Of a DNA stretch of 64,000 nucleotides, positions 9,556 through 63,665 are shown piece by piece. A program made the position numbers and the translations under genes. The DNA is from Gammaproteobacteria bacterium (GTDB taxonomy: Bacteria; Pseudomonadota; Gammaproteobacteria; Steroidobacterales; Steroidobacteraceae): positions 89,616 through 153,615 of the forward strand of contig PLET01000065.1 of assembly GCA_003137095.1 (NCBI GenBank), written 5' to 3'. The first letter of the stretch is position 1; every line of letters starts with the position of its first letter. Below the pieces are notes generated by a model. That model saw nothing but the letters and a program-made list of their open reading frames with translations, made no database searches and was not told the origin of the DNA.

Positions 9556-10734
9556 CTAGTAGGATTTTGGAAGGCCGAGCTCACGCTCGGCGATGTGACA
9601 AAGGATCATCTCCCTCGACACCGGCGCGAGCTGCGTGGCCACCATTTCGCGGAAGTATCGTTCGACATGATATTCGGCGGCATAGCCCATGCCGCCGTGG
9701 GTGCGGATCGCACGGTCGGCCGCCTTGAAGCCGGCGTCCGCCGCGAGAAATTTGGCGGCGTTGGCCTGCGCGCCGCACGGCTGGCCACGGTCCTGCAGGT
9801 CCGCGGCGTGCAACGTCATCAGTTCGGCGGCGTAGAGTTCCGACCAGCACTCGGCCAGCGGGTGCTGGATGGACTGGTTTTTGCCGATTGGTCGGCCGAA
9901 GACCACGCGCTCTCCGGCGTAAGCCACGGCCTTTTCGAGCGCCCGGCGTCCCATGCCGATGACCTCGGCGGCATTGATGATGCGCTCGGCATTGAGGCTG
10001 TCGAGAATATAGCGAAAACCTCTGCCCTCCTTGCCGATCAGGCGGTCGGCGGGCACGACCATGTTGTCGTAGAAAACCTGATTCGAATCGACGGCGTGGC
10101 GTCCCATCTTGGGTATTTCACGGATCTCGACCGCGCGGCGGTCCAGGTCTGCGTAGAACAGCGACAAGCCGTCCGTCGAACGGGTGCATTCCTCGATCGG
10201 TGTGGTGCGGGCGAGCAGCACCACCTTGTCGGCCTGCTGTGCGGTGGAGGTCCAGATTTTCTGGCCGCTGACCAGATAGTGGCCGCCGTGCCGGACTGCG
10301 CGGGTCTTGATCTTGCCGGTGTCCAGACCGGCATCCGGTTCGGTGACCCCGAAACAGGCGCGCGAACTGCCGTCGATGATGGACGGCAGCCATGCACGAC
10401 GCTGCGCGTCCGTCCCATGGCGGACGATGGAATGAAGGCCGAAGATATTGATGTGCACGGTCGAGCAGGCGGCGAATACACCGGCGGAATGTCCGATCTC
10501 CTGCATCATGATGGCGGCCTCCGTGACTCCGAGGCCGGCGCCGCCATAGGCTTCCGGCATGGAAATGCCGAGCCATCCGCCCTCGGCAACGGCGGCGGCA
10601 AACTCGAAGGGAAAGCTGTGCGTCCTGTCCTTTTCAGCCCAGTAAACATCGTCGAACCGATCGCAGATCGCGCGGATCGCATCGCGGATCGCCTCGCGTT
10701 CAGGTGTGTCGCAGAGGGGGGCGAACTGTTTCAC
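9556..10734 (-). CDS. Acyl-CoA dehydrogenase
   Basis: 392 aa; FPFEFAAAVAEGGWLGISMPEAYGGAGLG, CFGVTEPDAGLDTGKIKTRAVRHGGHYLVSGQKIWTS, RTHGGMGYAAEYHVERYFRE. Confidence 0.93.
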   Translation of the reverse strand: MKQFAPLCDTPEREAIRDAIRAICDRFDDVYWAEKDRTHSFPFEFAAAVAEGGWLGISMPEAYGGAGLGVTEAAIMMQEIGHSAGVFAACSTVHINIFGLHSIVRHGTDAQRRAWLPSIIDGSSRACFGVTEPDAGLDTGKIKTRAVRHGGHYLVSGQKIWTSTAQQADKVVLLARTTPIEECTRSTDGLSLFYADLDRRAVEIREIPKMGRHAVDSNQVFYDNMVVPADRLIGKEGRGFRYILDSLNAERIINAAEVIGMGRRALEKAVAYAGERVVFGRPIGKNQSIQHPLAECWSELYAAELMTLHAADLQDRGQPCGAQANAAKFLAADAGFKAADRAIRTHGGMGYAAEYHVERYFREMVATQLAPVSREMILCHIAERELGLPKSY

Positions 10735-58694: not shown

Positions 58695-59558
58695 ATGATT
58701 CGCAGCATGACAGGCTTCGCCCGCCGCGAGCGGCAACTTCCCTGGGGACTGCTCACGTGGGAACTGAAAACCGTCAACCACCGCTTTCTCGAGATCGGCT
58801 GCCGTCTGCCGGAGGAATTCCGGGCGGCGGAGGCCGGGTTCCGCCAATCGGTCGCCGCCTCCGTGCGCCGCGGCAAGGTGGAATGCTCGCTGAATGTTCG
58901 GCCGGCGACGGCCGGTGCGTCGCTGGAGGTGGATGCGAATCTGCTCGCCGCACTCACGCAGCGCGCCCAGCAGATCGCCACGCAGGCCGGCGTCGCGGCG
59001 CGCATCGACGTCGTCGACCTGCTGCGCTGGCCCGGCGTGCTGCGCGACGGCACGCGCGATGCGGCTCCCATGATTGACGCGGCGAACAAGCTGCTGGAGG
59101 AGGCGCTCGCCGATCTCGAGCGTTCACGCGACAGCGAGGGTGCGCGGCTGCGCGACGCGCTGGAGCTGCGCTGCAAGGGGCTCATCGAATTCGCGGCGCG
59201 GGTTGCCGAGCGGCTGCCGGAGGTGCGTGCCCGCGTGCGCGTCAAGTTGCTCGAACGCATCTCGCAATTGGTGAGCGACGTGGACCACGAACGTCTCGAA
59301 CAGGAGCTTGCCATCCTGGCGCAGCGCCTCGATGTGGACGAGGAAATCGAAAGGTTGCGCGGCCACGTCAGCGAGGTGCGCAATACCTTCGACGGCCCCG
59401 ACCCGGCAGGCCGGCGGCTCGATTTTCTGATGCAGGAGCTCAATCGCGAGGCGAACACGCTGTCGTCGAAATCCCAGGACATCGAAACCACCCGCGCCGC
59501 GGTCGACATGAAGGTACTGATCGAGCAGATGCGCGAACAAGTGCAGAACATCGAGTAG
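58695..59558 (+). CDS. yicC: YicC family protein
   Basis: MIRSMTGFARRERQLPWGLLTWELKTVNHRFLEIGCRLPEEFR ... LDFLMQELNREANTLSSKSQDIETTRAAVDMKVLIEQMREQVQNIE. Confidence 0.97.
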   Translation: MIRSMTGFARRERQLPWGLLTWELKTVNHRFLEIGCRLPEEFRAAEAGFRQSVAASVRRGKVECSLNVRPATAGASLEVDANLLAALTQRAQQIATQAGVAARIDVVDLLRWPGVLRDGTRDAAPMIDAANKLLEEALADLERSRDSEGARLRDALELRCKGLIEFAARVAERLPEVRARVRVKLLERISQLVSDVDHERLEQELAILAQRLDVDEEIERLRGHVSEVRNTFDGPDPAGRRLDFLMQELNREANTLSSKSQDIETTRAAVDMKVLIEQMREQVQNIE

Positions 59559-60187
59559 TGGCCGCGCAAAGCGAGCGCGGGCGTTTGTTCGTCATTGCCG
59601 CGCCGTCGGGCGCCGGCAAGACCAGCCTAGTCAAGGCCCTGATGGAGCGCGAGCCGCAGCTGCGCTTCTCGGTCTCCTACACCACCCGCACACCGCGGGC
59701 GACCGAGCTCGACGGCGCCGACTATCATTTCGTGGATGAGCAGCACTTCCGGCGCATGATCGACGCCGGCGAATTCCTCGAGCATGCCCGCGTGTTCGAC
59801 AACAGTTATGGCACCGGCCTCGCCGCGGTTCGCGGGGCCTTGGCCCGAGGCGAGCAGCTGCTGCTGGAAATCGACTGGCAGGGGGCCGCGCAGGTGCGGC
59901 GGCGACTGCCCGAATCACACGGCATTTTCATCCTGCCGCCGTCGCGGCGTTCTCTCGAGGACCGCCTGCGGCTGCGCAGCACGGACTCGGATGCGGTGAT
60001 CGCGCGTCGGCTGCGCGATTCGGTGGGCGATATGGCGCATTGGCCGGAATTCGAGTATGTGGTCATCAATGAGAATTTCGAGCAGGCGGTGGCGGATCTG
60101 CAGGCCATTGTCCACGGGCGGGGCGACGCGCTGCGCGCGGAGCGGCCTGCGGTTGCGCGCCTCGCGGCCGATCTGCTGCGCCCGTAG
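59558..60187 (+). CDS. gmk: Guanylate kinase
   Basis: GRLFVIAAPSGAGKTSLVKAL, LRFSVSYTTRTPRATELDGADYHFVDEQHFRRMIDAGEFLEHA. GTG start overlaps the yicC stop. Confidence 0.97.
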   Translation: MAAQSERGRLFVIAAPSGAGKTSLVKALMEREPQLRFSVSYTTRTPRATELDGADYHFVDEQHFRRMIDAGEFLEHARVFDNSYGTGLAAVRGALARGEQLLLEIDWQGAAQVRRRLPESHGIFILPPSRRSLEDRLRLRSTDSDAVIARRLRDSVGDMAHWPEFEYVVINENFEQAVADLQAIVHGRGDALRAERPAVARLAADLLRP

Positions 60188-60228
60188 CACCGCCGCCTGC
60201 CAACCGATGTCCCGGTGCGCGGCAGTCT

Positions 60229-61623
60229 TCAATACTGTGCGTGCAAGCGCACGGCGACCACCCATACCGGACCGCGATCGGTGTTGTAGCCGGGATTCTC
60301 GACGTGTTGCAGGTCCAAACTGAGATGAATCCCTGAGCGGACGGCGAGGCGGTAATAGGTCTCCAAGATTTGCTCGGCTGCCGGATGCGGCAGACGGCCG
60401 TCACCGATCAGCACCCCGAGGCCCCCGGCGGCCAGGTACCGCTCGCGCACGGCGGAGATCCCGTTGTCGATGGCGACGATGCCGATAGTGTCGTCGTGCC
60501 GATGCCACCGCGTACCCTGAATCGCCGCGCCCACCTCGACCGAGCGGTCGATATCCGTGAACTCGTACACCTCGACGTTGCCCGCGGCCTTGCCGAGGCG
60601 TGCAAAGACGCCGAGATCGGCGCTGATGGTCTGTTCGACATCAAGACTCGCCCCCGGTCGACCGCGGTATTGTCGGACGTCCGCGGCATTCGGCACGGTG
60701 CCGGTCAGCGAAGCCAGCTGAAGGGCCTGGTCGAGCAGCCCCATGCGGCCGCGGCTGTCGAACAGGGTCAGCCGCAGGCTGCCCGTCTGACCGAAAAGCC
60801 CGTAGCGCCGCTCGAGTTCGCCGTCGTACTGGAATTCGTGAAAGCCGGGGTCCAGATGGGTGCTGTTCGGAATATTGGACAGATCGAAGATGCCCGCGCG
60901 CAGCGTCCACGGCCCGAGATAGCGCTCGACGCACGCGCCGAGCGTGTACCCCCAGGCGTCCGCGGCGTAATCGTAGACGCCGGCATCCACCGCCGCCCAA
61001 TTGAAGAAATCAGCCCGCGGGTCATGCGCATACCGGTTCGCGTCGAACACGTCGGTTACGCCGAATTTGCCGAGCGTCAGCACCCAGCGATCCTGGCTGC
61101 GCGAGCCGCGGAGTTGATCCGCATCCGCCTCCACGACTTCCCGCTCGTCCCCCGTATTGAAGGTCTGACGTATGAAGGCCCGCGGCAAACGCAGATAGGG
61201 CTGATTCTTGCCGACCTTATAAGCCTCGCCGCTCGTGAATCCCGCCACCCCGAGGGTGTCGTCGAGCCCGAAGCCCTGGTCGATTTCCGGCGTGATCCAG
61301 CCTTCGGCCCCGGGCCAGAGGCGTGCACCGACGTACAGGGTGGCATCCGCCGTCTCGCGGCCGCTGCTCGGCGACAAGCTGTTGGGTCCGCTGTAGGGTG
61401 CCGGGAAGGCGTCGGTCTCCTGTTCGACGTAGGTTGCCTGGGCGTGAACCGCCCAGCGCTCCTCGGGAATCGGTTGCCCGTCCGGGCCCGCCGACTCGTC
61501 CGCCCGCGCGGCAGACGACTGAAAGCCTGCCAGCCAGATGAGGGTCAACGTCGCACCCACGGAGAGCCGCGAATCGCGCCGCGCGTGTCGCGCGTGGAGC
61601 TGATCGAGATTGTTCAGCGGCAC
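60229..61623 (-). CDS. OprB-family carbohydrate-selective porin-like protein
   Basis: Signal peptide; RWAVHAQATYVEQETDAFPAPYSGPNSLSP..., LFDSRGRMGLLDQALQLA, C-terminal VWVVAVRLHAQY beta-barrel end. GTG start chosen just after the HD gene stop. Confidence 0.78.
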   Translation of the reverse strand: MPLNNLDQLHARHARRDSRLSVGATLTLIWLAGFQSSAARADESAGPDGQPIPEERWAVHAQATYVEQETDAFPAPYSGPNSLSPSSGRETADATLYVGARLWPGAEGWITPEIDQGFGLDDTLGVAGFTSGEAYKVGKNQPYLRLPRAFIRQTFNTGDEREVVEADADQLRGSRSQDRWVLTLGKFGVTDVFDANRYAHDPRADFFNWAAVDAGVYDYAADAWGYTLGACVERYLGPWTLRAGIFDLSNIPNSTHLDPGFHEFQYDGELERRYGLFGQTGSLRLTLFDSRGRMGLLDQALQLASLTGTVPNAADVRQYRGRPGASLDVEQTISADLGVFARLGKAAGNVEVYEFTDIDRSVEVGAAIQGTRWHRHDDTIGIVAIDNGISAVRERYLAAGGLGVLIGDGRLPHPAAEQILETYYRLAVRSGIHLSLDLQHVENPGYNTDRGPVWVVAVRLHAQY

Positions 61624-61651
61624 TTGCAGCGGGAGATCCGACGAGACGTGT

Positions 61652-62206
61652 TCAGGTGCCGCGCAGAATGCCCAACGACTCGATGAGCACGCGATGATCG
61701 GCAAGGCTCGCCGTCAGAAGTCCGGCGATCTTGCCCTGATCGTCCCAATGCCGCAGCCGCACGGCCTCGCGGAAGTGGCGCTCGGCCTCGAATGCGCGCA
61801 CTTCCGGCAGCGACATCGGACCGCCCTGCAACTTCAGGGTGATTGCGGAGGCCGGGCTCAACATCGCGGCATAACCCGGGTCGGTTGCACACAGATAGCG
61901 TTTGGCCGGCACGTGCAGGCGCACGGGTTCGCTGACCTCCGGCGCGAAGCGCTGCGCCAGCCAGCGGCTGCCGGTGATTTCATGCCGCGCGTCCCGGGTC
62001 CATTCGGCGATGTCGTTCGGCGCAGCCTGCAGCAGGTGGCCGATGTCGTGCAGCAGCGCGGCGGCCACCAGTCCCGGAGGCGCGCCCTCGAGCGCCGCGA
62101 AGTGCGCCGCCTGTAGACAATGTTCCGTGGTCGACACCACCTCGCCGTAATAGGCACTGTCGCCGGCTTCGCGGAATAGGGCGAACAACTCGTCGGCGAC
62201 GCTCAT
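61652..62206 (-). CDS. PhnZ-like HD-domain protein (predicted mixed-valent diiron oxygenase; phosphonate-degradation-associated HD family)
   Basis: [41 protein letters not shown]...AALLHDIGHLL...RHEITGSRWLA...VRLHVPAKRYL...RHWDDQGK. Y19-xx-E22, H29, H53-D54, H75, H98-xxx-K102 and D155 match the PhnZ active-site layout. Confidence 0.82.
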   Translation of the reverse strand: MSVADELFALFREAGDSAYYGEVVSTTEHCLQAAHFAALEGAPPGLVAAALLHDIGHLLQAAPNDIAEWTRDARHEITGSRWLAQRFAPEVSEPVRLHVPAKRYLCATDPGYAAMLSPASAITLKLQGGPMSLPEVRAFEAERHFREAVRLRHWDDQGKIAGLLTASLADHRVLIESLGILRGT

Positions 62207-63606
62207 GGGAGCCCTGCTTCTGCGGACAGCGGTTCCGGCGGCGGCACGAGCGCGGCCGCGGCGCGGGTGCCGAGGACATACAGCCAGCCGGCCCCGAATG
62301 CCGTCAAGGCGCTGACGGCGGCCAGTACCACGAACACACCCTGCCAGCCATAGGCCACGGACATTTTCCCGACGCTGTAGCCGCCCAAAACCGCACCCAG
62401 GTAGCCCACACCGTCGATCAGGCCTGATGACACCGCACCGGCCTGCTTGCCGCCGAAATCGAGCGCAAAGGCGCCGCCGAGATAGCTATAGGGCCCGAGC
62501 AGACAGAAGGCGATCAGACCGATGGCCGCCAGGGGCACGAGAGTGCCGGTGGTGCTCGAGTGCATGCTCATCAGCAATATGAGCGCCGCAGCCGTACAGG
62601 TGAGTCCCACGAACATGATCAATGAGCGCCCGTTCACCCCGAGGCGGTCGCTGAGCCAGCCCGACACCAGCACGGAGACGGCGCCGACGCCCGGAAAAAT
62701 CGCGCTCATGCCGGCGGCATTGCTCATGCTGTAGCCCAGATAATCGCGCAGATACATCGGTGTCCAGTCGTTGAAGGTTTCGCGGATGATGGTGCATCCG
62801 AGGGACAGGAAACAAACCAGGAGGAAGGCGCGGCTGCGCAGCAGCGGCAGCAGCAGCTCCTTCAGATTGGCCGGCCGCGACTCCGAGGCGGCGAACAGAT
62901 TGAGCGGATTCGGGATGGCCTCCGAAAAGCCTGCGCGCACGCGCGATTCCCGCAGAAACAGGTAATTCGCGACCAGCATGGTGCCGGCCACCGCCGCGGC
63001 AAGGAGGAACAACGAACGCCAGCCGTAGCCGCGCAGGATCAGCGCGCCCATCCATTCGCGCGCTGCAGCATCGCCGACCAGATAGCTGACGCTCAGAATG
63101 CCGATGATCGAGCCATACGAGGAAAAATCGAACCATCGCGACGACACCTTGACCAGACCGGCCCAGGCGACCGACTGGGTCAGCCGGTTGCCGATCCACG
63201 CCATGGTGAACAGCGGCAGGCCGACGCCCGACGCAAACAGCAGCGTGAAGGCCATGGCGCCCGCCAGTCCAATCAGGAAATTGATGCGCCCGCCCCAGAA
63301 ATCGCCGAGACCCGTCAGGAACAGTTTGCCGAGCGCGTAGGCGAGCACCCCGAGCGAGCTGATGGCGCCAATTCCCACGATCACGTCGTCGTGGGACAGG
63401 CCGCGCTTGCCCAATTCTTCCACCAACATCGGCGTCGCGACGGACAGGTCGGCGCGGCAGAAATACAGCGAGGCATAGCCCCCGAACAGGAGCAGAACCG
63501 TCACGATTTGGCGTTGGCGCAGGCCTCGGATCACGGCGTTCCTCTGTGGGATCTTCCTCAAGGGACCTCCCCTTGAAACCGGGTTGGCTCTCACAAAGGC
63601 TATCAT
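62203..63606 (-). CDS. MFS transporter, organophosphate:phosphate antiporter (OPA/GlpT-UhpC)-like
   Basis: [119 protein letters not shown]. Start ambiguous (63606, 63648 or GTG 63534). Confidence 0.85.
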
Positions 63607-63665
63607 CCCATTTGAGACAGGCGTATTTCTGCTATTCTTGTCCGTCAATCATTTGGAATGAATTT

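Follow-up and report, generated by a model that had tools for sequence, protein, structure and literature searches.

What can an HD-domain oxygenase of phosphonate breakdown do at a locus that lacks the hydroxylase expected to act before it? PhnZ and TmpB catalyse the second step of a two-enzyme phosphonate pathway, and a relative of both is encoded, with no such partner beside it, in the stretch of DNA studied here (the window: 64,000 nucleotides of contig PLET01000065.1, assembly GCA_003137095.1, from a gammaproteobacterium of the family Steroidobacteraceae). Three tightly packed minus-strand genes, in the order and spacing described in an earlier note on this DNA, lie between the plus-strand genes gmk and rpoZ and encode a major facilitator superfamily (MFS) transporter, the HD protein and a porin. 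On balance, their sequences incline us to read the first two as a system for the import and oxidative carbon-phosphorus (C-P) bond cleavage of 1-hydroxyphosphonates that are taken up already hydroxylated. What is observed at the locus and in its relatives comprises gene content, homology, active-site conservation, predicted fold, loss of tmpA and the intactness of the HD and MFS genes. The features, with lengths in amino acids (aa), are as follows.

59558-60187, plus strand: gmk, the left flank (Pfam PF00625)
60229-61623, minus strand: OprB porin gene, GTG start, 464 aa
61652-62206, minus strand: HD gene, 184 aa
62203-62206, minus strand: 4-bp ATGA overlap of MFS stop and HD start, where relatives have a tmpA-like gene
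62203-63534, minus strand: MFS gene, ATG start, 443 aa
63666-63944, plus strand: rpoZ, the right flank (Pfam PF01192)

The MFS-HD junction leaves no space for a hydroxylase gene, and the gene calls there bear out the view that the cassette has none.

The HD protein and the transporter

Judged by its predicted fold, active site, lid and phylogeny, the HD protein is a PhnZ/TmpB-type oxygenase, as had been proposed from the sequence. In a sequence search of the PDB only TmpB (6npa, E 4e-33) and PhnZ (4mlm, 6e-27) matched well, and no match to MIOX or to ordinary HD phosphohydrolases was found. The AlphaFold model (mean predicted confidence, pLDDT, 94) retrieved PhnZ and TmpB at template modelling (TM) scores of 0.82-0.86 (E 1e-12 to 4e-11) with no other confident match; MIOX appeared at E >1 and other HD hydrolases at 0.13 or worse, so the protein does not group with either. 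The PhnZ residue layout given in the earlier note is present at every named position (Y19/E22/H29/H53/D54/H75/H98/K102/D155 aligned with PhnZ) and invariant across 24-27 relatives. The diiron ligand set is thereby complete (H29, H53/D54, H75, H98, D155), and both the active-site lysine (K102) and the YxxE lid (Y19-x-x-E22), a PhnZ/TmpB feature that is absent from MIOX (PMC8177086), are present. H57, S120 and R152 of the PhnZ site are also kept, all alignable substrate- and metal-site residues being retained at an overall identity to PhnZ of 35-36%. In the HD tree the window protein falls within a 33-row clade of operon-family HD proteins (support 99/98).

The search against curated models that had been suggested gave matches, but the cut-offs were not reached. 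TIGR03276 (phosphonate degradation HD-domain oxygenase) scored 202.1 bits against 214.6; since two relatives (L038 and L052) also score 202-208 bits, members of the window HD clade fall just under the line of this model. The TmpB equivalog NF049941 and the PhnZ1 equivalog NF052439 gave 164.9 and 143.5 bits against a cut-off of 300 each, and by these scores the protein counts neither as a TmpB equivalog nor as one of hydroxymethylphosphonate dioxygenase.

The 443-aa neighbour is, from its sequence, an OPA-type transporter (GlpT/UhpT/SLC37A4-like) outside the curated subfamilies. It matches PF07690 (E 1e-30) and TIGR00881 (143 bits), and its best solved relatives in the PDB are SLC37A4 (8e-18) and GlpT (1e-14), which together with two arginines agrees with the OPA-type assignment made before. 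These residues, R27 and R251, correspond to the two phosphate-binding arginines of GlpT in transmembrane helices 1 and 7 (TM1, TM7), R251 being aligned to the TM7 arginine in the context ...R....DW.P, and both are invariant in 32-35 members of the MFS family. None of the curated OPA subfamily cut-offs was reached (PgtP 143 against 408 bits, UhpC 106 against 564, GlpT 86 against 633, UhpT 61 against 497). AepP, a GlpT-related OPA permease, imports 2-aminoethylphosphonate (2-AEP) and is comparable by its published description (GlpT-related OPA-family MFS, aminophosphonate import, phosphate-binding residues kept), but its linked genes differ from those of the window transporter (PMC8316502).

The OPA-TmpA-HD operon of relatives

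In a sample of 296 genomes of the order, the HD protein is carried by 30, and at most of these loci, as in members of the genus, a gene of about 380 aa stands between the OPA gene, which comes first, and the HD gene. The middle gene encodes a TmpA-like 2-oxoglutarate (2OG) oxygenase (PDB match to TmpA at 2.4e-75; 361 bits on NF049936 against a cut-off of 400). The window MFS protein lies in a clade of OPA-TmpA-HD operons (support 100/99), and the window HD and MFS proteins are up to 77% identical to those of genus members. In one relative (L045) the TmpA/HD junction is also a 4-bp overlap (9745-9748), like the MFS/HD junction in the window. Since both window proteins are nested in the OPA-TmpA-HD clade, the window would have lost tmpA; on this phylogenetic evidence the cassette descends in reduced form, without TmpA, from an OPA-TmpA-HD operon, loss of tmpA being the simplest history. 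The conserved trio in relatives is OPA-TmpA-HD and not MFS-HD-porin.

Through this comparison an OPA-TmpA-HD operon is recognized in a family of gammaproteobacteria. No published description of it was found in the literature searched; the proteins examined, lying just under curated cut-offs, would go without a specific name. Likeness to TmpA/TmpB of Leisingera caerulea (6npb/6npa) is seen in that the window HD protein and the hydroxylase of the relatives have TmpB and TmpA, respectively, as their nearest solved structures, and in that the relatives keep the two-enzyme order. Unlike in that system, the window has no TmpA-type gene, an OPA transporter precedes the enzymes in the operon, both the window HD protein and the relatives' hydroxylase stay below the TmpB/TmpA equivalog cut-offs, and the TmpB clade forms a separate branch of the HD tree. 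With the PhnY*/PhnZ pathway of 2-AEP (4mlm, 4n71) the window HD protein shares predicted fold, diiron ligands, YxxE lid and lysine, but the window has no PhnY-like (PhyH) partner, and in the tree PhnZ branches far from it.

Both HD and TmpA occur in 24 genomes of the order sample and HD only in six of the 30 (G000, G227, G235, G237, G283, G285), while TmpA without HD was seen in one of 25, as a fragment at a contig end. Within the genus, 15 of the 17 HD-bearing genomes have TmpA, two have HD only (G000 and G349) and none has TmpA only. The finding of HD without TmpA repeatedly, and of TmpA without HD essentially never, is one of asymmetric loss. Neither the operonic kind of TmpA homologue nor the kind encoded on contig C105 of the window genome, discussed below, accompanies HD in G349, G227 and G235 (PhyH-type hydroxylases were not searched there); the TmpA-less G237 and G283 do have a C105-type gene. 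OPA-HD loci in genomes without a TmpA homologue were also found in two Planctomycetota, one Acidobacteriota and one Armatimonadota (again with no search for PhyH-type enzymes), the Armatimonadota locus having one further gene between OPA and HD, while in one planctomycete locus an FAD enzyme of TIGR03364 and a PhnX-like protein are encoded next. It may tentatively be proposed, with considerable doubt, that OPA import and a lone Phn-HD enzyme acting on pre-hydroxylated phosphonates form a recurrent one-enzyme route that arose by repeated hydroxylase loss in several phyla.

Two candidate arrangements were rejected. An OPA-TmpA fusion of 788 aa (L080, L204) resulted from a frameshift, the MFS end being read out of frame, and L203 was likewise not used; a second copy in G225 (L040) was set aside as an OPA-HD locus without TmpA because its transporter falls outside the OPA clade, on a very long branch.

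Several further arrangements of these genes were seen. In Kitasatospora, TmpA-like and Phn-HD domains occur in one continuous protein of 529-616 aa (L101:5939-7534, L134:5936-7525, L137:5675-7525), a bacterial parallel to PhoF, in which fungi combine PhnY and PhnZ. Three relatives (L038:8394-9638, L041:4341-5585 and L049:8164-9405) encode Phn-HD in one protein with a HAD phosphatase domain that resembles beta-phosphoglucomutase, and in all three the fusion gene is preceded by genes for a TmpA-like protein and a DctA-like transporter. Upstream of the OPA gene in L045, L047, L046, L051 and L035 lies a gene (cluster c5) for a PHP metallohydrolase of the CehA/McbA family, whose N-terminus resembles a signal peptide and which could free the substrate from an ester. 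At the phoH-ybeY-corC-lnt locus, G349 has the HD gene alone (L206), and another genus member (L080/L204) has OPA-TmpA-HD there. In Planctomycetota and Sphingomonadaceae (L105, L112, L121, L087, L095, L057 and others), DUF5690 (PF18943) genes recur next to those for Phn-HD, phosphonatase and the FAD oxidoreductase of TIGR03364; in Sphingomonas a phosphocholine-type phospholipase C gene is also adjacent to the DUF5690/Phn-HD genes, which suggests phosphonolipid headgroups as a source.

Hydroxylases elsewhere and the source of the substrate

The genome is a metagenome-assembled genome (MAG) of 91.8% completeness and was searched family by family. The absence of a PhnY/TmpA partner noted at the locus holds for the genome as recovered: the TmpA profile found no gene of the TmpA clade, and no convincing PhnY was found. 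The single PhyH match, on contig C80, lies among glycan-type genes and is not PhnY-like by this context. A hydroxylase of the right kind is thus likely absent; as TmpA stands beside HD in the relatives that have it, relocation into the missing part of the genome would be unlikely. The PEP-mutase-family matches in the genome had contexts such as a methylcitrate-type cluster, with no sign of phosphonate synthesis, and the search for PhnX gave sub-cut-off HAD matches only.

With the hydroxylase lost, the substrate would most likely be hydroxylated before uptake. The OPA-type antiporter would bring a small phosphonate into the cell against phosphate. Acting as an oxygenase with a mixed-valent Fe(II)/Fe(III) centre, the HD protein would use O2 to split a 1-hydroxyphosphonate at its C-P bond, yielding phosphate and a carboxylate. 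The substrate could be (R)-1-hydroxy-2-aminoethylphosphonate (R-HAEP) or an N-methylated analogue. Activity, substrate and transport, like any role of the porin, are deduced here from sequence. Import of a pre-hydroxylated phosphonate had been suggested in the earlier note; it stands as the best reading of the MFS-HD cassette, although the porin no longer forms part of it.

A related proposal, that phnZ next to phnWX handles naturally occurring R-HAEP, has been published, so the idea offered for the window is not wholly new (PMC8154272). The phnWX/phnWAY clusters resemble the window in placing a PhnZ-type enzyme outside the usual hydroxylase pair (PMC8154272), but the companion in the window is an OPA transporter, and close relatives still show the ancestral TmpA operon. 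An amoeba is a known source of R-HAEP, and Bdellovibrio has HAEP in its lipids, their environmental abundance being poorly known (PMC8154272). Retention of the second enzyme and the OPA transporter after loss of the first makes a testable claim, that free 1-hydroxyphosphonates suffice as a nutrient; if the one-enzyme route is real, the environmental pool of these compounds would be large enough for dedicated scavengers.

Several observations weigh against import of a ready-made hydroxyphosphonate. At 91.8% completeness a distant hydroxylase may have been missed, and the window genome does have a TmpA homologue of another subfamily, the one match to the TmpA profile, on C105. This TauD/TmpA-like protein nearly equals the operonic hydroxylases on the NF049936 model (354 against 361 bits), and TmpA-less G237 and G283 share the gene. 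The C105 protein, the C80 PhyH protein or a 2OG oxygenase missing from the MAG might therefore hydroxylate in trans, the window genes importing the parent compound and cleaving the product. This arrangement deserves to be kept in mind but is considered unlikely. The C105 protein is outside the TmpA clade (279 bits on the profile, compared with 450-635 for clade members) and the next gene after its own encodes another kind of HD protein, which matches MIOX weakly and Phn-HD in part; at least five genomes of the family conserve this pair. The neighbours of the C105 pair, named from sequence and not by profile search, are spermidine/putrescine-type transport, aminotransferase and aldehyde dehydrogenase genes. 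In addition, TmpA adjoins HD wherever relatives have it, and G349, G227 and G235 keep HD without either kind of TmpA homologue. The C105-type pair, a TmpA/GBBH-like 2OG enzyme and then an HD protein of about 190 aa (C105:13380-15097, equal to L063:8381-10098; also L068, L069, L072 and L073), possibly represents a different hydroxylate-then-cleave pathway.

A further point on the same side concerns selection, which after TmpA loss is measurable in a single lineage, that of two genomes sharing the loss (L046 and L051). Their HD genes have a Ka/Ks (ratio of nonsynonymous to synonymous substitution rates) of 0.41, most neighbouring genes 0.12-0.33 and the small c34 gene 0.52; TmpA-bearing pairs have lower HD values, 0.07-0.23 (p ~0.01 in a rough test). 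Constraint on HD after the loss thus persists, Ka/Ks being below 1, but may be relaxed. Together with the patchy distribution, this would suit a transporter and an oxygenase that are on the way out and persist for lack of time. Such a relic is judged decidedly unlikely, given that the MFS Ka/Ks of the same pair is 0.23, that HD without TmpA recurs while the reverse essentially never does, and that the window HD and MFS genes are intact, HD without decay. The window HD protein has two deviations (F20Y and Y171H) at positions conserved in at least 90% of 41 sequences, which is within the range of its peers, F20Y lying in the lid and being present in other sequences too; the MFS protein has one deviation at conserved sites.

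The HD protein also lies under every curated NCBIfam cut-off. This, with the HD-HAD phosphatase fusion in three family members, which hints at phosphate-ester chemistry nearby, could mean that the OPA transporter supplies not a 1-hydroxyphosphonate but another compound, such as an organophosphate or a polyol. A different substrate is very improbable in view of the retained PhnZ substrate- and metal-site residues, H57, S120, R152 and the lid included, and of the homologues elsewhere, which adjoin PhnX, PhnR and phosphonate-associated FAD and alcohol dehydrogenases. Lastly, no sigma-70-like promoter was found for the cassette, nor any Pho-box-like site within it, matches elsewhere in the Pho-box scan being at chance level.

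The porin and the insertion site

The porin gene starts 28 bp downstream of the HD stop on the same strand and may, given this gap, be co-transcribed with HD. Its OprB family assignment is sound on sequence (PF04966, 155.1 bits against a gathering score of 22.9). These features had led the earlier note to regard porin, OPA antiporter and oxygenase as one module, a dedicated unit evolved for uptake from the outer to the inner membrane and cleavage. The comparison went the other way: not one of the roughly 42 HD loci in relatives has the porin beside HD, HD was absent from all eight porin loci examined, and porin homologues, present in 40 of 150 family genomes, are common as scattered stand-alone genes. 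The porin is outside the conserved unit, with no sign of a shared pathway with HD, and a dedicated three-part module, judged separately, is quite improbable. Of the trio, co-conservation therefore fails for the porin and holds for the MFS-HD pair.

At the opposite end of the cassette, the MFS gene has an alternative TTG start at 63648; the 38 aa that it would add lie outside the MFS family match. The gmk and rpoZ genes, adjacent in many gammaproteobacteria according to the earlier note, follow each other directly in 18 of the 19 genus relatives with a readable gmk locus, and among these the cassette lies between them in the window only; it would therefore be an insertion specific to the window lineage. 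The sole genus member without rpoZ within about 1.5 kb of gmk is L217 (G253:C32), where another insertion may sit.

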